Shown piece by piece: positions 9,253-37,060 of a DNA stretch of 37,060 bases; the first letter of the stretch is position 1, and every line of letters begins with the position of its first letter. A program made the translations under genes and the position numbers. A model generated the notes under the pieces. That model saw only the letters and a list, made by a program, of their open reading frames with translations, was not told where the DNA came from and searched no databases. The stretch covers positions 1 to 37,060 of the forward strand of contig CAIXGS010000084.1 in NCBI GenBank assembly GCA_903919125.1. Reading direction: 5' to 3'. The DNA comes from an uncultured Spartobacteria bacterium. GTDB taxonomy: Bacteria; Verrucomicrobiota; Verrucomicrobiia; Chthoniobacterales; Chthoniobacteraceae.

Positions 9253-10068
9253 ATGAGTTTTGGATTTCAAGAATTTCTACCGCAGGACCTTTGGGAGATT
9301 CAATCTCAGTGGCCGGTGCTCGCCTCGCTAGCGATCATTGAAATCCTGCTATCAGCAGACAACTTAATTGAGGTTTCCTCGATCGCAGCGCATCTCCCAC
9401 TCCATCAGAGACTCATGGCGATCCGAATAGGAGTTCTCGGGGCCTTCGTGGCGCGCGGCGTTCTCCTAGTGCTCGCAGCGCCTTATATTGCTCAATATCC
9501 AGCGATCCGATTTATTGGAGCACTTTATCTAATCTATCTTTCCACCGCTCATTTTACAGGGAATCGCGACCGCGAGCCCCGCGGCCCAAAAGAACATTGG
9601 AGCTTTACCAAAACTTTGTTAAGTGTCCTAACCTTAGATCTAGCACTCAGTATAGATAACATCGTAGCGGCTGTCTCATTGAGCAAAACACCTTGGGTGG
9701 TCTGGTCCAGCATCCTTTTCGGCTTCATTTTTATCGGTTTGTTTGGCCGTTTCACCGTACACCTCATCAAGCGCTCTAAGGCTCTGCTCGAAACCGTTTA
9801 TGTTTTGGTCGGGTGTCTCGGAGTCCTGCTTCTCGTTGAGATCATCACCCATACGGCGAATCTCACGCACATTCAGGATGAGGAACGATTCTGGGGATTG
9901 ATTTCCGTGGTGGTGATCACCCTCATTTACGATGCCCAGCGCGGCATCCAGCGCGTAGTGGAACCGATACTCAAAAAGTTTGTAATGCCTGTGCTCCGCG
10001 TCGTGCATTTCCCCCTGAGCTTGCTATTTCTACCGGTGCGCAAATTGGGTAACCTCATCGGCAAGTAG
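9253..10068 (+). CDS. TerC-family integral membrane protein
   Basis: Multi-spanning inner-membrane protein of the TerC family, whose members have been linked to metal (often manganese) export or to tellurite resistance. Two conserved acidic membrane motifs are visible: LLSADNLI near residue 33 and LALSIDNIVAAV near residue 132. They are the inverted-repeat signature of the family. About seven to eight hydrophobic helices are spread over 271 residues. The C-terminal quarter ends in a basic amphipathic stretch. The gene stands alone on the plus strand. Its exact substrate cannot be read from sequence. Confidence 0.85.
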   Translation: MSFGFQEFLPQDLWEIQSQWPVLASLAIIEILLSADNLIEVSSIAAHLPLHQRLMAIRIGVLGAFVARGVLLVLAAPYIAQYPAIRFIGALYLIYLSTAHFTGNRDREPRGPKEHWSFTKTLLSVLTLDLALSIDNIVAAVSLSKTPWVVWSSILFGFIFIGLFGRFTVHLIKRSKALLETVYVLVGCLGVLLLVEIITHTANLTHIQDEERFWGLISVVVITLIYDAQRGIQRVVEPILKKFVMPVLRVVHFPLSLLFLPVRKLGNLIGK

Positions 10069-25821: not shown

Positions 25822-25897
25822 GCGGGTGTAGCTCAGTTGGTAGAGCACTTCCTTGCCAAGGAAGATGTCGCGCGTTCGAGTCGCGTCACCCGCTCCA
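25822..25897 (+). tRNA. tRNA-Gly (anticodon GCC)
   Basis: A complete 76-nt cloverleaf. The acceptor stem GCGGGTG / CACCCGC, D-arm GCTC / GAGC, anticodon stem CTTCC / GGAAG with loop TTGCCAA (anticodon GCC), T-arm with TTCGAGT loop, and an encoded 3' CCA are all present. It marks the change from core genes to accessory genes. No second copy of its 3' end (attachment-site duplication) was found in the window. Confidence 0.97.
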
Positions 25898-26391: not shown

Positions 26392-26997
26392 GTGGATCAA
26401 CGGTTTTTCCTGACCGGCGGAAGTGCTCTGGGGTTGTTTTATTTACATCACCGGATTTCTTACGACCTGGATTTATTTACTACTTGTGAGATCGAGGCCA
26501 TTGAAGTCCGGAACCTAGTCATTCGGGTCGCAAACACAATTGGGGCAGAGTGTCAGGCCATCCGTTCAGCGCCTGACTTTAATCGGTTCCGTCTGACTCG
26601 AGCCGAAGAGCGGGAGCTCATTGATGTCGTGGTTGACCGCGCCCCCCAACTGGATTCACAGAAAGCAGATTTTGAAGGAATTAAGGTCGATACGATCCGA
26701 GAAATTATTGCCAACAAGCTGACGACTCTCATTAGTCGCACCGAATTGAAGGACGTCGTAGACCTCTACTTTCTCCAGCAGGCCGGGCACGATCTTCTCG
26801 CCGCTATTCCCGATGCGAAACAAAAGGACGGAGGCTGGGAACCCGCGGTAGTTTCGATGTTGTTGGATGGCTTAAAAATAACAGAGGTACCGGGTTGGGT
26901 TGTCGCGGACTTGACGCAGGCCGAACTTCAGGCGTTCCTTGAACGGCTCCGTCTTTCCATCGCGAGCCTCGCCCTCCCCAATCCGCCTTCGGAGTAA
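26392..26997 (+). CDS. AbiEii/AbiGii-type nucleotidyltransferase (type IV TA toxin family)
   Basis: A nucleotidyltransferase of the AbiEii family, in which the toxin uses an NTP to modify tRNA and block growth during phage infection. The core signature is GGSAL at residues 9-13, then LHHRISYDLDLF (19-29) with the two catalytic aspartates, and a third acidic site in ELIDVVVD. From GTG at 26392 it has 201 residues. The conserved family start (KRDFLRAWFEV) lies in frame just upstream at 26362-26391 but is preceded by ATA, not a standard start, and by a stop at 26338. Either the protein starts at GTG and lacks 11 residues, or an unusual codon is used. Confidence 0.8.
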   Translation: MDQRFFLTGGSALGLFYLHHRISYDLDLFTTCEIEAIEVRNLVIRVANTIGAECQAIRSAPDFNRFRLTRAEERELIDVVVDRAPQLDSQKADFEGIKVDTIREIIANKLTTLISRTELKDVVDLYFLQQAGHDLLAAIPDAKQKDGGWEPAVVSMLLDGLKITEVPGWVVADLTQAELQAFLERLRLSIASLALPNPPSE

Positions 26998-27245
26998 ACA
27001 TTGGATTCTCCCGCAATTACCGAAGGAACGTGATTAGCCGTAATTTTCTGCCGCTAATGCGTAGAGGAATAACTGTATGATTGGGAACCCGCAGTGGAGC
27101 GCGCAAGAGAGCGGCATTTTGGCACGCAAAAACGGAGAGGCGGCAGAGACAGACACTTTCCCCCATTCACTTGACAAGCCTGAGTCGTAAATTCTTTGCA
27201 TGCTTTTTATTGAGTGCGGCGCACGAATTACGGGATTGTTTGTGG
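26998..27245. other. intergenic region between AbiEii and Fic genes
   Basis: The two genes converge. The stretch contains one copy of the GACAGACAC-type repeat and otherwise nothing recognised. Confidence 0.4.
27132..27165 (+). repeat. repeat C copy 1 (RAYT-type, GAGACAGACAC)
   Basis: The core GAGACAGACACTTT at 27146-27159 is preceded by GGAGAGGCGGCA. It is a slightly diverged member of the family whose consensus core is GGGGACAGACACT. Confidence 0.6.
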
Positions 27246-28004
27246 TCACCCTAACGCTTCTTCGTATCGCTGGAGCGACTCCAAAACTCGCGCTCCGACG
27301 AATGCACGGAATGGCGTGGAATCCCCAGACTCATCTGCCGCCGCAAGAGCGTGATAATAATCCGCTCTCTGGACATTCGCTGCCCGGATAATCGTCAGCG
27401 GATATCCGCCCTGCATCAGATGCAGGTTCATCACCAGACGACAGACCCTTCCATTGCCATCAATAAACGGATGGACCTGCGCCAAACGCAGATGCAAATC
27501 CGCCGCAATCTCAACCTCATGAGACTCTCTCTTTCCTGCGTACCACCCGAACAATTCTTCCATTAATGCAGGCACCTTAAGGGGATTCGGAGGTGTATGT
27601 CGCGAACCCGAAATCCGGACAGCAACATTTCGATATCGCCCAGACCATTCGTCTTCAATTCCGCGCAGGATGATCGAATGCAACTGAAGAAGGGCTGACT
27701 CAGTGAGAGGTGTCCGTTCCGAAACAAGCTTCTGCAACAGGTGAAATGCTTCGAGATGGTTCTTTGCTTCCAAGTGATCTTTCAGCGGCTTACCAGCCAC
27801 CGTGAGCCCACGTCGAATAACCACTTCGGTTTCGGCAAGAGTCAGGGTGTTCCCTTCAATGGCATTCGACTCGTGAATGTATTCCGTTTCCTCCGCCTCA
27901 AAGACTGTCGCTAGTCCTTTGATCTGTTCCGAAGAAAGCGGACGACGGGCGTCGAGCTTTGCCTTCAGTGCGTCAATTTCAGCGAGATATGGAGTGACTT
28001 TCAT
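27246..28004 (-). CDS. Fic family protein (AMPylating enzyme) with inhibitory helix
   Basis: A Fic-domain protein of 252 residues from the ATG at 28004; a GTG at 28019 would add 5. The catalytic motif HPFIDGNGRVCR (178-189) matches the HxFx(D/E)GNGRxxR consensus, with catalytic H178. An N-terminal inhibitory motif S46-N-A-I-E50-G51 matches (S/T)xxxE(G/N), so this is an autoinhibited class II Fic enzyme. No separate antitoxin gene is needed or present. It transfers AMP (or related groups) to target proteins; the target is unknown. It converges with the AbiEii gene and lacks a clear ribosome site. Confidence 0.9.
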   Translation of the reverse strand: MKVTPYLAEIDALKAKLDARRPLSSEQIKGLATVFEAEETEYIHESNAIEGNTLTLAETEVVIRRGLTVAGKPLKDHLEAKNHLEAFHLLQKLVSERTPLTESALLQLHSIILRGIEDEWSGRYRNVAVRISGSRHTPPNPLKVPALMEELFGWYAGKRESHEVEIAADLHLRLAQVHPFIDGNGRVCRLVMNLHLMQGGYPLTIIRAANVQRADYYHALAAADESGDSTPFRAFVGARVLESLQRYEEALG

Positions 28005-28019
28005 ACAAAGGTGACCCAC

Positions 28020-28975: not shown

Positions 28976-29012
28976 GGGACAGAGGTTAGAAGTGTCTGTC
29001 CCCCGCGCTCCC
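28976..29012 (-). repeat. repeat C copy 3 with hairpin
   Basis: GGGACAGA (28976-28983) and TCTGTCCCC (28995-29003) form an inverted repeat; the minus-strand reading of the right part is the core GGGGACAGACAC. It directly adjoins repeat A copy 1. Confidence 0.7.
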
Positions 29013-31360: not shown

Positions 31361-32032
31361 TTAAGAGGAGCTACCATCGAGCCGGATAGATTTGGCGAGG
31401 CCGTCGAGATCAGGAAAGACACTTGCGGGATGGATGCCGCAGCGGCGGAGTTGCTCCTTAACGCGTGTGTCGAGCTTGGAGGAAATCTCGAAGCACTGGA
31501 GGGTATTCGAGGTGTATGTCTCGGTGGGATCCGGATGGATAGTGAGCATAGAGGCTTGGGTGGCGATACGTGCTGAGGTATGTGCGGGTTGGAACTTCCC
31601 GACCTTCTTGACGGCGAAGGGATCTGATGTCACCTCGGTATCAATATGGTTCTTGAATCTCTCGGCGTAGACGGCCGCAGTTTTGCCCGACCGATCCCAC
31701 ACCGCAAAATACATAGCAACGAGAGGATTTCGGGTCCAATCGAGTAAGCGCACGGGGAGTCCGTGATGGCGCGCAAGCACCATCCATTCCCACGCAGTGA
31801 GGCTTGCATCCACATGGCGAGCGCCTTCCAAACGGAAGCGCTTGAGCCAATGCTTTTCTTCTTTGTTTATGTCAGCCAGCGTAGCTTTCTGGAATTTCGA
31901 AAGGCGTCCGATACTTGGAACAAGCGTATGCGCTTTAAAATCCGCAACACCTCGAAAAATGTAACCGTTCAACGATTTGGAGCAAACTTGCTCAACGTAG
32001 TCTTTGAAGGATGTTATTTTAATGGATTTCAT
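31361..32032 (-). CDS. FRG-domain protein
   Basis: A 223-residue protein of the FRG family. The name-giving aromatic-Arg-Gly motif is YIFRG (24-28) and the second signature HHGLPVRLLDWTRNPLVAMY is near residues 89-108. FRG domains are of unknown biochemical function and occur often in mobile and phage-defence contexts. The protein appears full-length, with an ATG start at 32032. Neighbouring sites are repeat A copies 4 and 5. Confidence 0.85.
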   Translation of the reverse strand: MKSIKITSFKDYVEQVCSKSLNGYIFRGVADFKAHTLVPSIGRLSKFQKATLADINKEEKHWLKRFRLEGARHVDASLTAWEWMVLARHHGLPVRLLDWTRNPLVAMYFAVWDRSGKTAAVYAERFKNHIDTEVTSDPFAVKKVGKFQPAHTSARIATQASMLTIHPDPTETYTSNTLQCFEISSKLDTRVKEQLRRCGIHPASVFPDLDGLAKSIRLDGSSS

Positions 32033-32119: not shown

Positions 32120-32154
32120 CGGCAACTAAGAGATCGCGGACGCGGGAGCGTTAA
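32120..32154 (+). repeat. repeat A copy 5
   Basis: CGGCAACTAAGAGATCGCGG then ACGCGGGAGCGTTAA. The left half is diverged, the right half conserved. It is followed after 5 nt by repeat B. Confidence 0.65.
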
Positions 32155-32159
32155 GGGAG

Positions 32160-32312
32160 AATTGCTTTTGCCCGATTCCTTGCGTGGCGTACAGCGAAAT
32201 CCGGCCATTATGTGCGATTTTGGCTTTGGTTTCCGGCAAAAGACCGGCTTTGGTTCAAAGCTCGTATCGTTCAACTTGCGCACCAGTTCCTAGCCTCAGT
32301 TTTATCGCCAAT
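32160..32312 (+). repeat. repeat B, left copy (153 bp)
   Basis: About 90% identical (roughly 13 differences) to 36576-36728, in the same orientation. It begins ATTGCTTTTGCCCG, a motif also seen at the left end of repeat A. Frames on either strand have no family signal and contain stops, so it is probably non-coding. Confidence 0.85.
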
Positions 32313-32498
32313 GCTCCGGCGGTGGGCTCAATCCGTGTACACGTTTTCGTAGTCCGGCATCGGGTCGCTCATGTCATAGGGCGAACTACGATGTTCCGTT
32401 TGCTCTACAGGGGAACGGAAGTGTCTGTCCCCTACGCTCAACCTTCGGAGCGCGCGGGGAGAACCAGAGAAGCGTTGCCAACGCCAACCCCCAGACGT
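32313..32498. other. non-coding region with repeat C copy 4
   Basis: Apart from GTGTCTGTCCCC at 32421-32432 (minus-strand repeat C core), nothing is recognised. Confidence 0.4.
32410..32455 (-). repeat. repeat C copy 4
   Basis: The minus-strand core GGGGACAGACAC spans 32432-32421. GGGGA at 32410-32414 on the plus strand pairs with TCCCC, giving a partial hairpin like copy 3. Confidence 0.55.
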
Positions 32499-32850
32499 CT
32501 ACTGCCCTAACTGCAACGTCCATCCACCCGTGGAGAGCGTCGGCAGAACACCCGATTCTACCCAGCCTCGAGCACGTAATGCTTCGTCGGTTTGAGACAT
32601 CAAGCCACAGCCGTAAATATTACGCCGCACATTCTTCCCAGAAATGTTCGTGATGTAGTAACCGGTAAACTCCCCGTTCTGCCTGTTTAAGGTGAGCAAC
32701 AATCTCGGCGATGAAACGCCAGTTTCATCTGTCGTTGATATCGTTAAAACCCTTCCAGTTGCAGTAACGGAAACATTCCACGCAAAGGAAGCCGTGTTCC
32801 CGTCTGAATCAGGCGGATCCTGCGCGTTCAACGTGAATTGGGATGCGAGA
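32499..32850 (-). pseudogene. C-terminal fragment of a large surface/Ig-like protein
   Basis: About 115 codons reading toward lower coordinates: FTLNAQDPPDSDGNTASFAW, then RLLLTLNRQNGEFTGYYIT and a final GGWTLQLGQ. This resembles the last domain of the long beta-rich, immunoglobulin-like surface proteins common in Verrucomicrobiota. The frame extends 5' only through repeat C copy 5 sequence, so the main part of the gene is missing. It is a 3' gene remnant captured between repeats. Confidence 0.55.
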
Positions 32851-32878
32851 CGCAGGGGACAGACACTCCGGTAAAACC
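32851..32878 (+). repeat. repeat C copy 5
   Basis: GGGGACAGACACTCCGGTAA (from 32855) followed by AACC. It is identical over this stretch to copies 6 and 7, and it precedes a transposase fragment. Confidence 0.85.
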
Positions 32879-32909
32879 TTTTCCCCGTCGCATCCGTAGC
32901 AAGGGGTGT

Positions 32910-33005
32910 ATGAGGCGCGCGAGATTCAAGGCCGAGGCTTCGGTGCAGGTCGCTCACTACCATTGCGTTTCCAGAGTGGTAGACAGGAACTTTGTTCTGG
33001 GCGAA
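32910..33005 (+). pseudogene. RAYT (Y1 transposase-family) 5' fragment, left copy
   Basis: The first 32 codons of a REP-associated tyrosine transposase of the IS200/IS605-related type: MRRARFKAEASVQV, then HYHCVSRVVDRNFVLGE, with the strand carrying the conserved histidines. It then runs directly into repeat C copy 6. The catalytic tyrosine and the HuH motif of the full enzyme (about 300 residues in relatives) are missing, so it is inactive. Confidence 0.75.
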
Positions 33006-33012
33006 GGCGAGA

Positions 33013-33040
33013 CGCAGGGGACAGACACTCCGGTAAAACC
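33013..33040 (+). repeat. repeat C copy 6
   Basis: The core GGGGACAGACACTCCGGTAA starts at 33017. Together with copy 5 it brackets the transposase fragment. Confidence 0.85.
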
Positions 33041-33081
33041 CTCAAGCACTGAGATGCGAGTTTCAGCGTAACATAGGCAGG

Positions 33082-34872
33082 TTAACCAAACGAGGCAAAA
33101 CCAGTGCCGTCCAGCGCGTAGAACATTCGCAGGATGCGGCGGGCGGTTTCTGGAAAGCGCCAATCTCCAAATTGAAGCATCGCGGAGGGGTTGGCCCGAG
33201 CGGATTTGGATGCTTCTGCTTTGCGGTCGGGGACGGCACACCATTCCAGCACCATACCCAGAGGCTGTTCGAGTTTACCTCGCGAGCCGTGAAATTTAGG
33301 CAGGATCTTCATCAAAACGGCCCGGTCAAATGCGGTGTCGGGCTCAAGTTCATCGCGAAGGGCTTCGGCGTTGCTGAGGAACATCATGAGTTCATCGAAA
33401 ACGCGGTAACCAAAATGCAGGCTGTAGGGTGCGAGTGCTGTGTTGAGTTCCTGTAACAAGGACGCTTGGTCGGGGTTGTTTTGGATATACGAAGCGATTT
33501 CGGCTTTATCGATGCGCGCGAATTTTCCGCTGCGAGTGAAGGAGTTCAGAAGCTCCTGGCTTTGTCCGCTGCTGAACGTCGTTCTAGCTTGGATGGATTG
33601 ACTGGCAACCCTCGCGTATCGCTCGAAATCGACCCCGATAAATTCCATGCTGAAGGCCCGATCCAGCACCTTGGCACTGAACGCGTGGGTGGTTTCATCG
33701 ATGTTGACGGTGCCGATGAAATACAGGTTGGGGGGAAGGTGGATCTCAGCAGGCGGCATCTCCGATGCTGCGGATTCTTTGCCAATCTGCAGGCGCAATG
33801 GCTCGCGCGTATAACCGTTCTCATCCCGGCCGGATTCGAGCACACTCAGCAGGTCTGCAAAGTAGTATTCGACCCTCGCCAGGTTCATTTCGTCAAGAAT
33901 GACAAACCAAACCGATGCTTTGTCCGTCTCATAGTCGGTGATCGCTTTTTGCATGAAATGCAGGAAAGGGGTCCATTCGTAGGCCCCGGTGAGGGGATTG
34001 TAAAAGCCGAGCAGGCTTTTGCTGTCGCGCCAATCGGGACGCACGGAGATGAACAGGGTGTTGGCGGTGGGTTCTGTGCCAACCTGTTCTGTCTGGGTTG
34101 CATCGGGCGCGGAGGGAACCGGCAGCATTTCCGCAAACAATTGCGCCAGCTTGGTTTTACCGGTTCCGCTGATGCCGCTTAGAATCACGAAGCCTTTGGT
34201 TTGAAGGGCCGTGTAAAACGAGGCGATTTGGACGGAATCGAAATAGTAGTTCCTGCTTTGGACGTATTGTTTAATTTGAGAAATAATAGACATTTTGGAC
34301 TCCGCTGGTTCAGGGGGCAGGCTGCGCGGCGTGTTCGGAGGCAGGCCGTCGCGCTTAAAATATAAGGGGTGAGGCAGGGCTGGATTCTCGGTTGTTTCAC
34401 GCAGGTATTCCGTAATTGCGGGGGTGTATAACTGCGGCCAGTTGTTTTTGGTTCCCGGTCTCAGGACGTTGGAGATGTATTTTTCATGCGCAGGCCTGAT
34501 GCGCTCGAGCGCCTTCGCGAACTGAGCGATATCTGCATAGGGAATGACGATTTCAACGGACCCACCCGGGCCCGTGTTTTTTAGTCCTGTGCCGATTCGA
34601 CAGTTCCATGCTTCCAGGTCCGCTTTCAGCGAGGGGGTCAGCATCGCCTCGGCGGCCATGACGCTGAGGCCTTCGATGCTCCGGCCGTTCAGGTCCACGC
34701 GGTATCTGGTGGTGTAGACATTGCGGAGGCATAAAACAATGGAACCATTCCGTTCAAAAACCGACCACCCCACGGGGCTGATAGTGTGAGAGCACTCAAT
34801 GCTGTGGGCGAAAAAGTTGACCACCCTCCCGTGTGCCTGCGGATGACTCTCGAAGATTTGGGCAACATTCAT
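33082..34872 (-). CDS. mcrB: McrB-like AAA+ GTPase/ATPase of a two-gene restriction system
   Basis: A 596-residue protein. The N-terminal 190 residues are a specificity region of unassigned fold. The AAA+ motor follows: Walker A GISGTGKT (233-240), Walker B FVILDEMN (323-330) with the McrB-type continuation LARVEYYFADLLSVLESG, and a sensor segment FIGTVNIDETTHAFSAKVLDRA. This is the pattern of McrB, which forms rings that drive cleavage of modified DNA by McrC. Its ATG overlaps the upstream mcrC-like stop by 4 nt (ATGA), so translation is coupled. Modified-base specificity cannot be read from the sequence. Confidence 0.85.
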   Translation of the reverse strand: MNVAQIFESHPQAHGRVVNFFAHSIECSHTISPVGWSVFERNGSIVLCLRNVYTTRYRVDLNGRSIEGLSVMAAEAMLTPSLKADLEAWNCRIGTGLKNTGPGGSVEIVIPYADIAQFAKALERIRPAHEKYISNVLRPGTKNNWPQLYTPAITEYLRETTENPALPHPLYFKRDGLPPNTPRSLPPEPAESKMSIISQIKQYVQSRNYYFDSVQIASFYTALQTKGFVILSGISGTGKTKLAQLFAEMLPVPSAPDATQTEQVGTEPTANTLFISVRPDWRDSKSLLGFYNPLTGAYEWTPFLHFMQKAITDYETDKASVWFVILDEMNLARVEYYFADLLSVLESGRDENGYTREPLRLQIGKESAASEMPPAEIHLPPNLYFIGTVNIDETTHAFSAKVLDRAFSMEFIGVDFERYARVASQSIQARTTFSSGQSQELLNSFTRSGKFARIDKAEIASYIQNNPDQASLLQELNTALAPYSLHFGYRVFDELMMFLSNAEALRDELEPDTAFDRAVLMKILPKFHGSRGKLEQPLGMVLEWCAVPDRKAEASKSARANPSAMLQFGDWRFPETARRILRMFYALDGTGFASFG

Positions 34873-36503
34873 TTCATTGAAGCGGGTCGGGAGTTGGGCT
34901 TTTTTCCTGGTTTGAGGCAGATGGCGCCAATGCCATCCAAGTGAATTTTGTCTTGCAGGTCATAGGTGTGTCCAGCGAGGACATCGTGCAGTGTAAAATT
35001 ATGAATGCGTTTCCCTTGCGTGGGCATAAAAACCGGCTGGCTCCCGGGATACACCACCAGGGCCGCCTGCGTTCCTATGAGCGCATCACGATAGGTGTGC
35101 ATTTTGTAGAGTGTTTCGCGTACAGGGTGTTCTTCGCGGATGAGGATTTCTTCGCCATCGATCGCGACAACCAGCTTCTCCTCGCCCACTTGCATGCTGA
35201 ATTTGGCGTCCAGCACCACCTGTCGCCCTCGGCCGATCCAGACAAAGTCGGGACGCAGTTCCATGGAATAGGAACGGGTCGGACGCCTGGGGTGAAACGT
35301 CTGGTTATAGAGTAGTAAACTGCCGTCTTCGAAATCAGCCCGAGCGCCATGCTCGAGTCCGTTTTCATCGGACCAAGGTGCGCTCAGGCGGGAAAGTTGG
35401 GTTTGTTCTTCAATTTCGCCAATCAGGGCAAAGAAAGCCCACAACTCGTAGAGTTGGTAAATGGCGCGCAGGTCCACCGCCTGTTCCCAGCGCTCGAACA
35501 GGGGACTGCGCGCCGTGTGAAATTGCTGCCACAGGCGCATCAGGTCGCGGTAGCCTTCACGGCGCAGGAGCACTTGCGAGTGAAAGGGGATGGAATGCAG
35601 TTCGCCAACTTCGGTAAAGACGGGATGGGAGATGGTTTGGCGAAGGAGCGCGGCCAGCTCGCCCAGCGCCCTCGCTTCTTCCAACTCCTGAACGTGTTTC
35701 CACCAACTGCGCAAGGGCAAGGTGTCGAGCGCCGTTAGTACTTGGCGCAGAAAGTGGAGGACAAAGCGGTTTTCCGGAGTATCGAAGGTTTCTTCTGGCA
35801 GACCTTGCCAGACTTTTTGGGGCGCATAGTGCACTCCATTGACCTGCATGGCTGGAGAAAAAACGAAATCTCGGGACGCGATCCATGTTTCAGGAGCCTG
35901 CAGAATGCTGGAAATCACATCGCCGTCCACTTGCGAGGCTTCATGCAGGAGCACTTGAGCAGCCCGTTCGTGCAGGAGACGGCAGGGGTGGGCCAGCACC
36001 GTTTCAAGGGCGGCACGGAATGCCGCGAGGCTGTGCACCAAGAAGTGGTAAGTAAAGATGGGACTGGGTGGGCGGAGGGCTTCGGAGACACCACGCTGCG
36101 TCTGGTTTGCAAAGTCAAAGGGCAGGTGCGCCGCCCGGTGAAATAGATCGGCAATGAGCGTCTGGCAAAAGTCGAGATGACTTTGGGGCGTGGGAAATTT
36201 GAAAGTGAGGACCTCCACCCAAAGCGGATCGCCCAGCGGTTGGCCGCCCGCCAAAGGCTGAATGCAGGTCAGTCCCAAGTTGTTTTCTATTCGAACACGA
36301 AAAGTAGCGGTGTTTCCGTGCCGCAAAAGGGGCGCTTGGGGTATTCCTGCATTCAGTCGCAACTGTTCCGCCCCTTCGAGAGTGACAAGGTATTCCCGCC
36401 ACTCTTGCAGAAAGTGAGAGGCAGGAACCAGATTGGACCGGAATTCATCCGGTATGGGTTCCAACTGTTGCGCGAAGGAGGCCAGAGTGAGTGGTTCAGA
36501 CAT
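34869..36503 (-). CDS. McrC-like protein with DUF2357 and PD-(D/E)xK nuclease domain
   Basis: From the ATG at 36503 the product is 544 residues. The N-terminal and middle part resembles DUF2357. The C-terminal nuclease shows RPDFVW (D419) and VLDAKFSM (D432, K434), the PD-(D/E)xK signature of McrC. A GTG at 36539 would place the start inside repeat A, and no good ribosome site precedes either start. It is the upstream gene of the pair and overlaps mcrB by 4 nt. The order (nuclease first, motor second) is the reverse of E. coli mcrBC. It is the DNA-cutting partner of a type IV-like restriction system. Confidence 0.8.
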   Translation of the reverse strand: MSEPLTLASFAQQLEPIPDEFRSNLVPASHFLQEWREYLVTLEGAEQLRLNAGIPQAPLLRHGNTATFRVRIENNLGLTCIQPLAGGQPLGDPLWVEVLTFKFPTPQSHLDFCQTLIADLFHRAAHLPFDFANQTQRGVSEALRPPSPIFTYHFLVHSLAAFRAALETVLAHPCRLLHERAAQVLLHEASQVDGDVISSILQAPETWIASRDFVFSPAMQVNGVHYAPQKVWQGLPEETFDTPENRFVLHFLRQVLTALDTLPLRSWWKHVQELEEARALGELAALLRQTISHPVFTEVGELHSIPFHSQVLLRREGYRDLMRLWQQFHTARSPLFERWEQAVDLRAIYQLYELWAFFALIGEIEEQTQLSRLSAPWSDENGLEHGARADFEDGSLLLYNQTFHPRRPTRSYSMELRPDFVWIGRGRQVVLDAKFSMQVGEEKLVVAIDGEEILIREEHPVRETLYKMHTYRDALIGTQAALVVYPGSQPVFMPTQGKRIHNFTLHDVLAGHTYDLQDKIHLDGIGAICLKPGKKPNSRPASMK

Positions 36504-36516
36504 GTATCTTGGAGGA

Positions 36517-36570
36517 GATTGCTTTTTACCTCCCGGCACGATTTCTTCAGCCTGAACGCTGGAGCGTTAA
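36517..36570 (+). repeat. repeat A copy 6
   Basis: The unit starts ATTGCTTTTTACC, passes through GGCACGATTTCTTCAGCCTG and ends AACGCTGGAGCGTTAA, with a perfect palindrome AACGCT-GG-AGCGTT. It lies upstream of the mcrC-like gene and is followed after 5 nt by repeat B. Confidence 0.8.
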
Positions 36571-36575
36571 TGGAT

Positions 36576-36728
36576 AATTGCTCTTGCCCGATTCTGGGCG
36601 TGGTGTACAGCGAAATCCGGCCATTATGTGCGATTTTGGCTTCGGTTTCCAGCAAAAGACCGGCTTTGGTTCAAAGCTCGTCCCGTTCAACCTGCGCACC
36701 AGCTCCGAGCCTCAGTTTTATCGTCAAT
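36576..36728 (+). repeat. repeat B, right copy (153 bp)
   Basis: The direct partner of 32160-32312, about 90% identical and of equal length. With repeat A copy 6 it repeats the A-B order seen at 32120-32312. Confidence 0.85.
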
Positions 36729-36813
36729 TTGGGCAATGGATGCTCGGGCGGCGAACTGGCTTTTAGAAGGAGAGAAGGCACCGGTCTCTGACTTTCACTT
36801 TAAAAAATAAGGA

Positions 36814-36854
36814 ACGGGGGAGCGAGCGCAGGGGACAGACACTCCGGTAAAACC
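36814..36854 (+). repeat. repeat C copy 7
   Basis: GGGAGCGAGCGCA precedes the core GGGGACAGACACTCCGGTAA at 36831. It is nearly identical to copies 5 and 6. Confidence 0.85.
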
Positions 36855-36885
36855 TTTTCCCCGTCGCATCCGTAGCAAGGGGTAT

Positions 36886-37060
36886 ATGAGGCGCGCGAGA
36901 TTCAAGGCCGAGGCTTCGGTGCAGGTCGCTCACTACCATTGTGTTTCTAGGGTAGTAGACAGGAACTTTGTTCTGGGCGAGTTGGAGAAGGAAACTTTTG
37001 TAAAACTGATGCGGCGTTACGAGACCTACTGTGGATTTCGAATTTGGGAGCGAGCGCAGG
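36886..37060 (+). pseudogene. RAYT (Y1 transposase-family) 5' fragment, right copy
   Basis: The same N-terminus as the left fragment, extending to 52 codons (continuing ELEKETFVKLMRRYETYCGFR). It then changes to GGGAGCGAGCGCAGG, the start of another repeat C (copy 8), cut by the window end. Over the 95 shared nucleotides it differs from the left copy at four positions, all silent third-codon changes. Confidence 0.75.
37046..37060 (+). repeat. repeat C copy 8, cut by window end
   Basis: GGGAGCGAGCGCAGG matches the left edge of copy 7 (36819-36833), so a further repeat C presumably continues beyond the window. Confidence 0.55.

Follow-up and report, generated by a model that had tools for sequence, protein, structure and literature searches.

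A predicted McrBC-type operon flanked by copies of two dispersed repeat families in a hypervariable island

Introduction

Does the similarity of the repeats on both sides of an operon mean that they delimit it as a mobile or excisable unit, or can such bracketing arise simply because the region is rich in repeats? The question is raised by a two-gene restriction operon which an earlier note on this DNA had described as lying between two clusters of repeats A, B and C, in the same order and direction on either side, with the suggestion that the clusters brought the module in or can delete it. The window, i.e. the whole stretch of DNA analysed here, is the complete contig C84 (1–37060) of an 87-contig, 4.34-Mb genome (G000), and we compared it with 11 relatives from the same genus.

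Results

The McrB-like and McrC-like genes (Table 1) overlap by 4 bp, both on the minus strand, and form an intact two-gene operon; the nuclease reading frame opens with GTG at 36539, the likelier start being the ATG at 36503. The AAA+ protein matches Pfam AAA_5 above the cut-off (E = 2.8e-5), shows a weak match to the restriction GTPase structure 6ut3 (E = 6e-4) and is called PDC-M26A by PADLOC, and the nuclease matches PF09823 (DUF2357, E = 9e-30) and PF04411 (PDDEXK_7, E = 1.2e-9). An McrB-like AAA+ GTPase with Walker A/B and the Nx(x)D motif is thus found in one operon with an McrC that combines DUF2357 with a PD-(D/E)xK nuclease, and the assignment to mcrBC made earlier stands on these Pfam domains, though none of the NCBIfam models was matched by the operon proteins. 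Judged by its domains and motifs the operon is of the McrBC type and predicted to function in type IV restriction, that is, GTP-dependent cleavage of modified DNA. A published census (PMC11090510) describes McrBC systems with AAA_5 and DUF2357-PD-(D/E)xK, one branch of which has the GTPase motif NxD, usually followed by E or D. Our operon resembles this branch in joining an AAA_5 GTPase-like protein to a DUF2357-PD-(D/E)xK nuclease, and its NIDE corresponds to NxD followed by E, a likeness of motif rather than of phylogenetic placement.

Table 1. Features of the island and of the repeat clusters around the operon (window positions).
Feature	Position	Strand	Remarks
tRNA-Gly(gcc)	25822..25897	+	last genus-conserved element; island starts beyond
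FRG-domain gene	31361..32032	-	left neighbour of operon; PADLOC PDC-S15
A, 3' remnant	32140..32156	+	17 bp
B, left copy	32157..32312	+	matched 173 nt including A remnant = 32140-32312
B2, downstream part of A-B element	32306..32411	+	~57 nt between B and B2 missing here
REP, inverted	32415..32439	-	GGGGACAGACACT core
Relic of Ig-domain protein gene	32498..32845	-	last 115 aa; intact homologue at G000:C24
C, left copy	32845..33004	+	REP + RAYT gene 5' fragment
Second REP unit past C	33007..33040	+	
McrB-like AAA+ protein	33082..34872	-	596 aa; Walker A GISGTGKT, Walker B ILDEMN, NIDE (NxD-E)
McrC-like nuclease	34869..36503	-	DUF2357-PDDEXK_7; PDF...DAK catalytic residues present
A, right copy	36513..36571	+	near full length; just upstream of operon
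B, right copy	36556..36728	+	
C, right copy	36821..37045	+	REP + RAYT gene 5' fragment, longer than left
Further REP unit	37046..37060	+	start only, cut by contig end

The operon sits within a hypervariable island which begins at tRNA-Gly(gcc). The gene accC is kept in all 12 genus genomes, with the tRNA next to it in 10 relatives out of 11 (it is absent from the stretch of the other one), while to the right of this pair nothing is common to the relatives' stretches that were checked, several of which are little informative because their contigs stop soon after the tRNA. No close homologue of the nuclease was found in the genus relatives checked, and none of them has the operon; among 57 genomes of the order only three others matched the nuclease, all partially and at 28–32% identity, one of the three within the genus, and the best homologues come from Chloroflexi (~45% identity) and Abditibacteriaceae (42%). 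For the neighbouring FRG gene the 11 relatives likewise offer no close homologue, only one match at 31%, and both this gene and the nuclease gene are single-copy in the genome. The same island contains an AbiEii-like gene and a Fic-domain gene (window 26392–28019).

Repeat A is a 64-bp, partly palindromic element ending in GCGTTAA, often with B attached and sometimes present as tandem A-A units. Nearly every genomic B directly follows an A, so that A and B in the same order represent one element. Matches to A-B are found in 9 of the 12 genus genomes (43 in G003, 23 in G009 and 15 in G001). Neighbouring A copies on one contig agree in orientation in 56 pairs and are opposite in 7, as counted over loci picked for holding A, a few of them overlapping; the bias would be explicable by lagging-strand insertion via a Y1-type transposase. 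We looked for an unambiguous empty site for A by genome search and junction reading and found a mosaic instead, 98% identical to G001 on the left of A and 92% to G007 on the right. A reading of A and B as structured RNA was dropped, as Rfam gave no match and both fold no better than shuffled sequences. A promoter-like site, a consensus match only, lies on the minus strand at window positions 36623–36651, within right B and upstream of the operon.

Repeat C is dispersed, with copies genome-wide, and corresponds to the 5' part of the gene for a REP-associated (RAYT) transposase; the earlier note had recorded C together with a RAYT fragment. A full-length gene of this kind in the same genome (G000:C36, L251:9490-10686) has PF01797 at E = 5e-11 and the REP core on its 5' side, and scores 61 bits against NF047646, under the cut-off of 80. 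The genome therefore contains a Y1 HUH transposase gene with associated REP sequences. It resembles the described REP/RAYT systems (PMC2817692, PMC3116915) in having a full RAYT gene with a Y1_Tnp domain and short REP sequences that are abundant, tandem and clustered, with C made up of a RAYT fragment plus REP. In contrast to those systems, A, 64 bp long and ending in GCGTTAA, differs from the local REP in sequence and has no RAYT linked to it here.

What remains, then, of the symmetry between the clusters? B and C are indeed direct repeats, and their spacings of 4416 and 3976 bear out the ~4.4 and ~4.0 kb given before. The rest does not hold in the form described: left A is just the end of the element, fused to unrelated sequence, A-B counts once, and the left cluster has B2, an inverted REP and a gene relic, all of which the right one lacks. 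Nor is A, near full length on the right, a property of the pair, since further copies lie in the window at 28983, 29867 and 30415 and over 40 matches to the family occur genome-wide. The flanking copies are not mutually nearest, as those of a composite transposon would be: left B shares 95.7% identity with copies on C26, C52 and in G003, compared to 90.8% with right B, and left C is 98.7% identical to a copy on C69, compared to 96.8% to right C. Right C does have left C as its nearest relative (96.8%), though the margin to the next copies (96.3% and 96.2%) is just half a percent. Since the left copies are closer to copies elsewhere and the contents of the clusters differ, the clusters do not form a duplicated pair and are best read as separate events.

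The Ig-protein relic stops exactly where left C starts, hence a rearrangement with an endpoint at C took place here, which suggests that left C was involved in one or more rearrangements at the locus. Insertion of the operon into the Ig-protein gene between C copies was also considered and dropped, as no contig with the missing 5' part at high identity was found.

Comparisons between species link the repeats to breakpoints more generally. We collected blocks shared across species that were 400 bp or longer and 93% or more identical, and compared the positions of their ends with random placement on the same loci. Of 16 informative ends, seven have an A, C or REP no more than 10 bp away in at least one of the two genomes, against 0.76 on average for random placement, which never exceeded 4 in 2000 trials. 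Two of the seven share one C29 junction (leaving about six independent), and the loci had been gathered by looking for A. The clearest block is shared by G000:C57 (L131 4781-9645) and G003:C164 (L180 1377-6241), 4865 bp at 99.86% identity, while accC DNA between the species is ~80% identical; A stands at its left edge in both genomes and at the right edge in G003. A/REP repeats thus mark module breakpoints, as their cause or as later insertions. The coincidence with block ends could also stem from mis-binning of contigs, or from repeats that entered older junctions afterwards.

A second block, between G003:C145 (L181 428-7431) and G009:C71 (L211 3767-10770), spans 7004 bp at 99.54%, with its left edge in G003 falling at the right-hand end of a copy of A. 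Positions 9305–13296 of L295 (G000:C29) form a mosaic: a gene that breaks off at a REP and is 98.5% identical to G003 is followed by 195 bp that occur at two places in G001 (98%), and beyond these come A and DNA with 92% identity to G007.

Discussion

In our opinion the most probable explanation, to which we assign a probability of about 0.72, is that the operon belongs to the island and that the A-B and C copies beside it arose independently, as insertions or remnants from two dispersed families, and mark breakpoints rather than the matched ends of a mobile unit. The operon would then be a module acquired horizontally. The 64-bp element family (A-B) and the REP/RAYT material (C) would both accumulate in variable regions, A presumably moving by a single-strand (Y1/RAYT-like) route, and the repeats would mark sites where modules were joined, lost or exchanged. 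Bracketing of the operon is on this explanation ordinary for a repeat-rich variable island and probably incidental, and the reading as matched flanks falls away. Against the explanation, the repeat-bounded interspecies blocks (4865 bp at 99.86% and 7004 bp at 99.54%) would fit active exchange sites too, the relic ends at left C, and the true right flank lies beyond the sequence seen, as the contig stops inside right C.

Alternatively, A may be a true recombination site, integron-like or otherwise site-specific, with the A-to-A intervals acting as mobile cassettes that the species of the genus exchange. The 56:7 orientation concordance, the tandem A-A units, the excess of block ends at A/REP (7 of 16 against 0.76 expected) and the A-edged 4.9-kb block between G000 and G003, so much more similar than accC DNA, are all consistent with this. 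However, REP sequences form boundaries as well, several blocks have A at one end only, the contigs are possibly mis-binned and genes are oriented both ways relative to A, and we consider such a role unlikely. The likeness to integron cassettes is that short, partly palindromic elements stand as direct repeats between small accessory modules. An attC site has R'' (RYYYAAC) and R' (GTTRRRY) boxes; the right end of A, GCGTTAA, fits loosely, but the left end, AAGGATAGG, has no AAC and thus no R'' box. In G000 (~95% complete) no IntI scores above the family cut-off (best 85.6 bits against 265), and one short fragment with stops is found at C79:32005-32136. An integron array as the main reading was dropped on these grounds. 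Elsewhere in the genus, G005:C3:3-824 (L089) encodes an integron integrase that passes the family cut-off and is truncated by the end of its contig; this member has no A-B matches. It also seems improbable to us that restriction and other accessory modules move between species as A-bounded cassettes through an undescribed exchange system of the genus, based on an ssDNA transposase or a recombinase, that recognises A.

The remaining alternative is the one proposed originally, in which the clusters work as flanks, the defence module being gained or lost through homologous recombination between the directly repeated B or C copies. The B copies (32140–32312 and 36556–36728) are 91% identical over 173 nt and the C copies (32851–33004 and 36827–36980) 97% over 154 nt, with longest shared exact runs of 38 and 57 bp, respectively, and the contig end in right C has a 101-bp exact match to C69, so that it could reflect a real assembly branch. 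Recombination is therefore mechanically possible and excision between the copies may occur, perhaps at a low rate. A contig with the deleted form did not turn up in the genome, however, where the FRG and nuclease genes occur once each, and the import of the module by matched flanks finds no support in the affinities of the left copies or the differing composition of the clusters. As an account of this locus it has little chance of being right.

Returning to separate insertions as the preferred explanation, the presence of A/REP at the edges of recently exchanged blocks would offer, if it holds in isolates or long-read data, a testable handle on the swapping of accessory and defence modules in the genus. 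The notion that modules between A copies serve defence only was dropped, as the A-bounded intervals hold many kinds of genes (ABC transporter, esterase, FAD oxidoreductase, cytochrome, kinase). The 4865-bp block carries genes for an ABC transporter, a PBP-like protein and a rhodanese, and at L136 (G000:C70, 3410–5881) an 823-aa protein with a caspase-like peptidase domain (PF00656) is encoded between two A copies.
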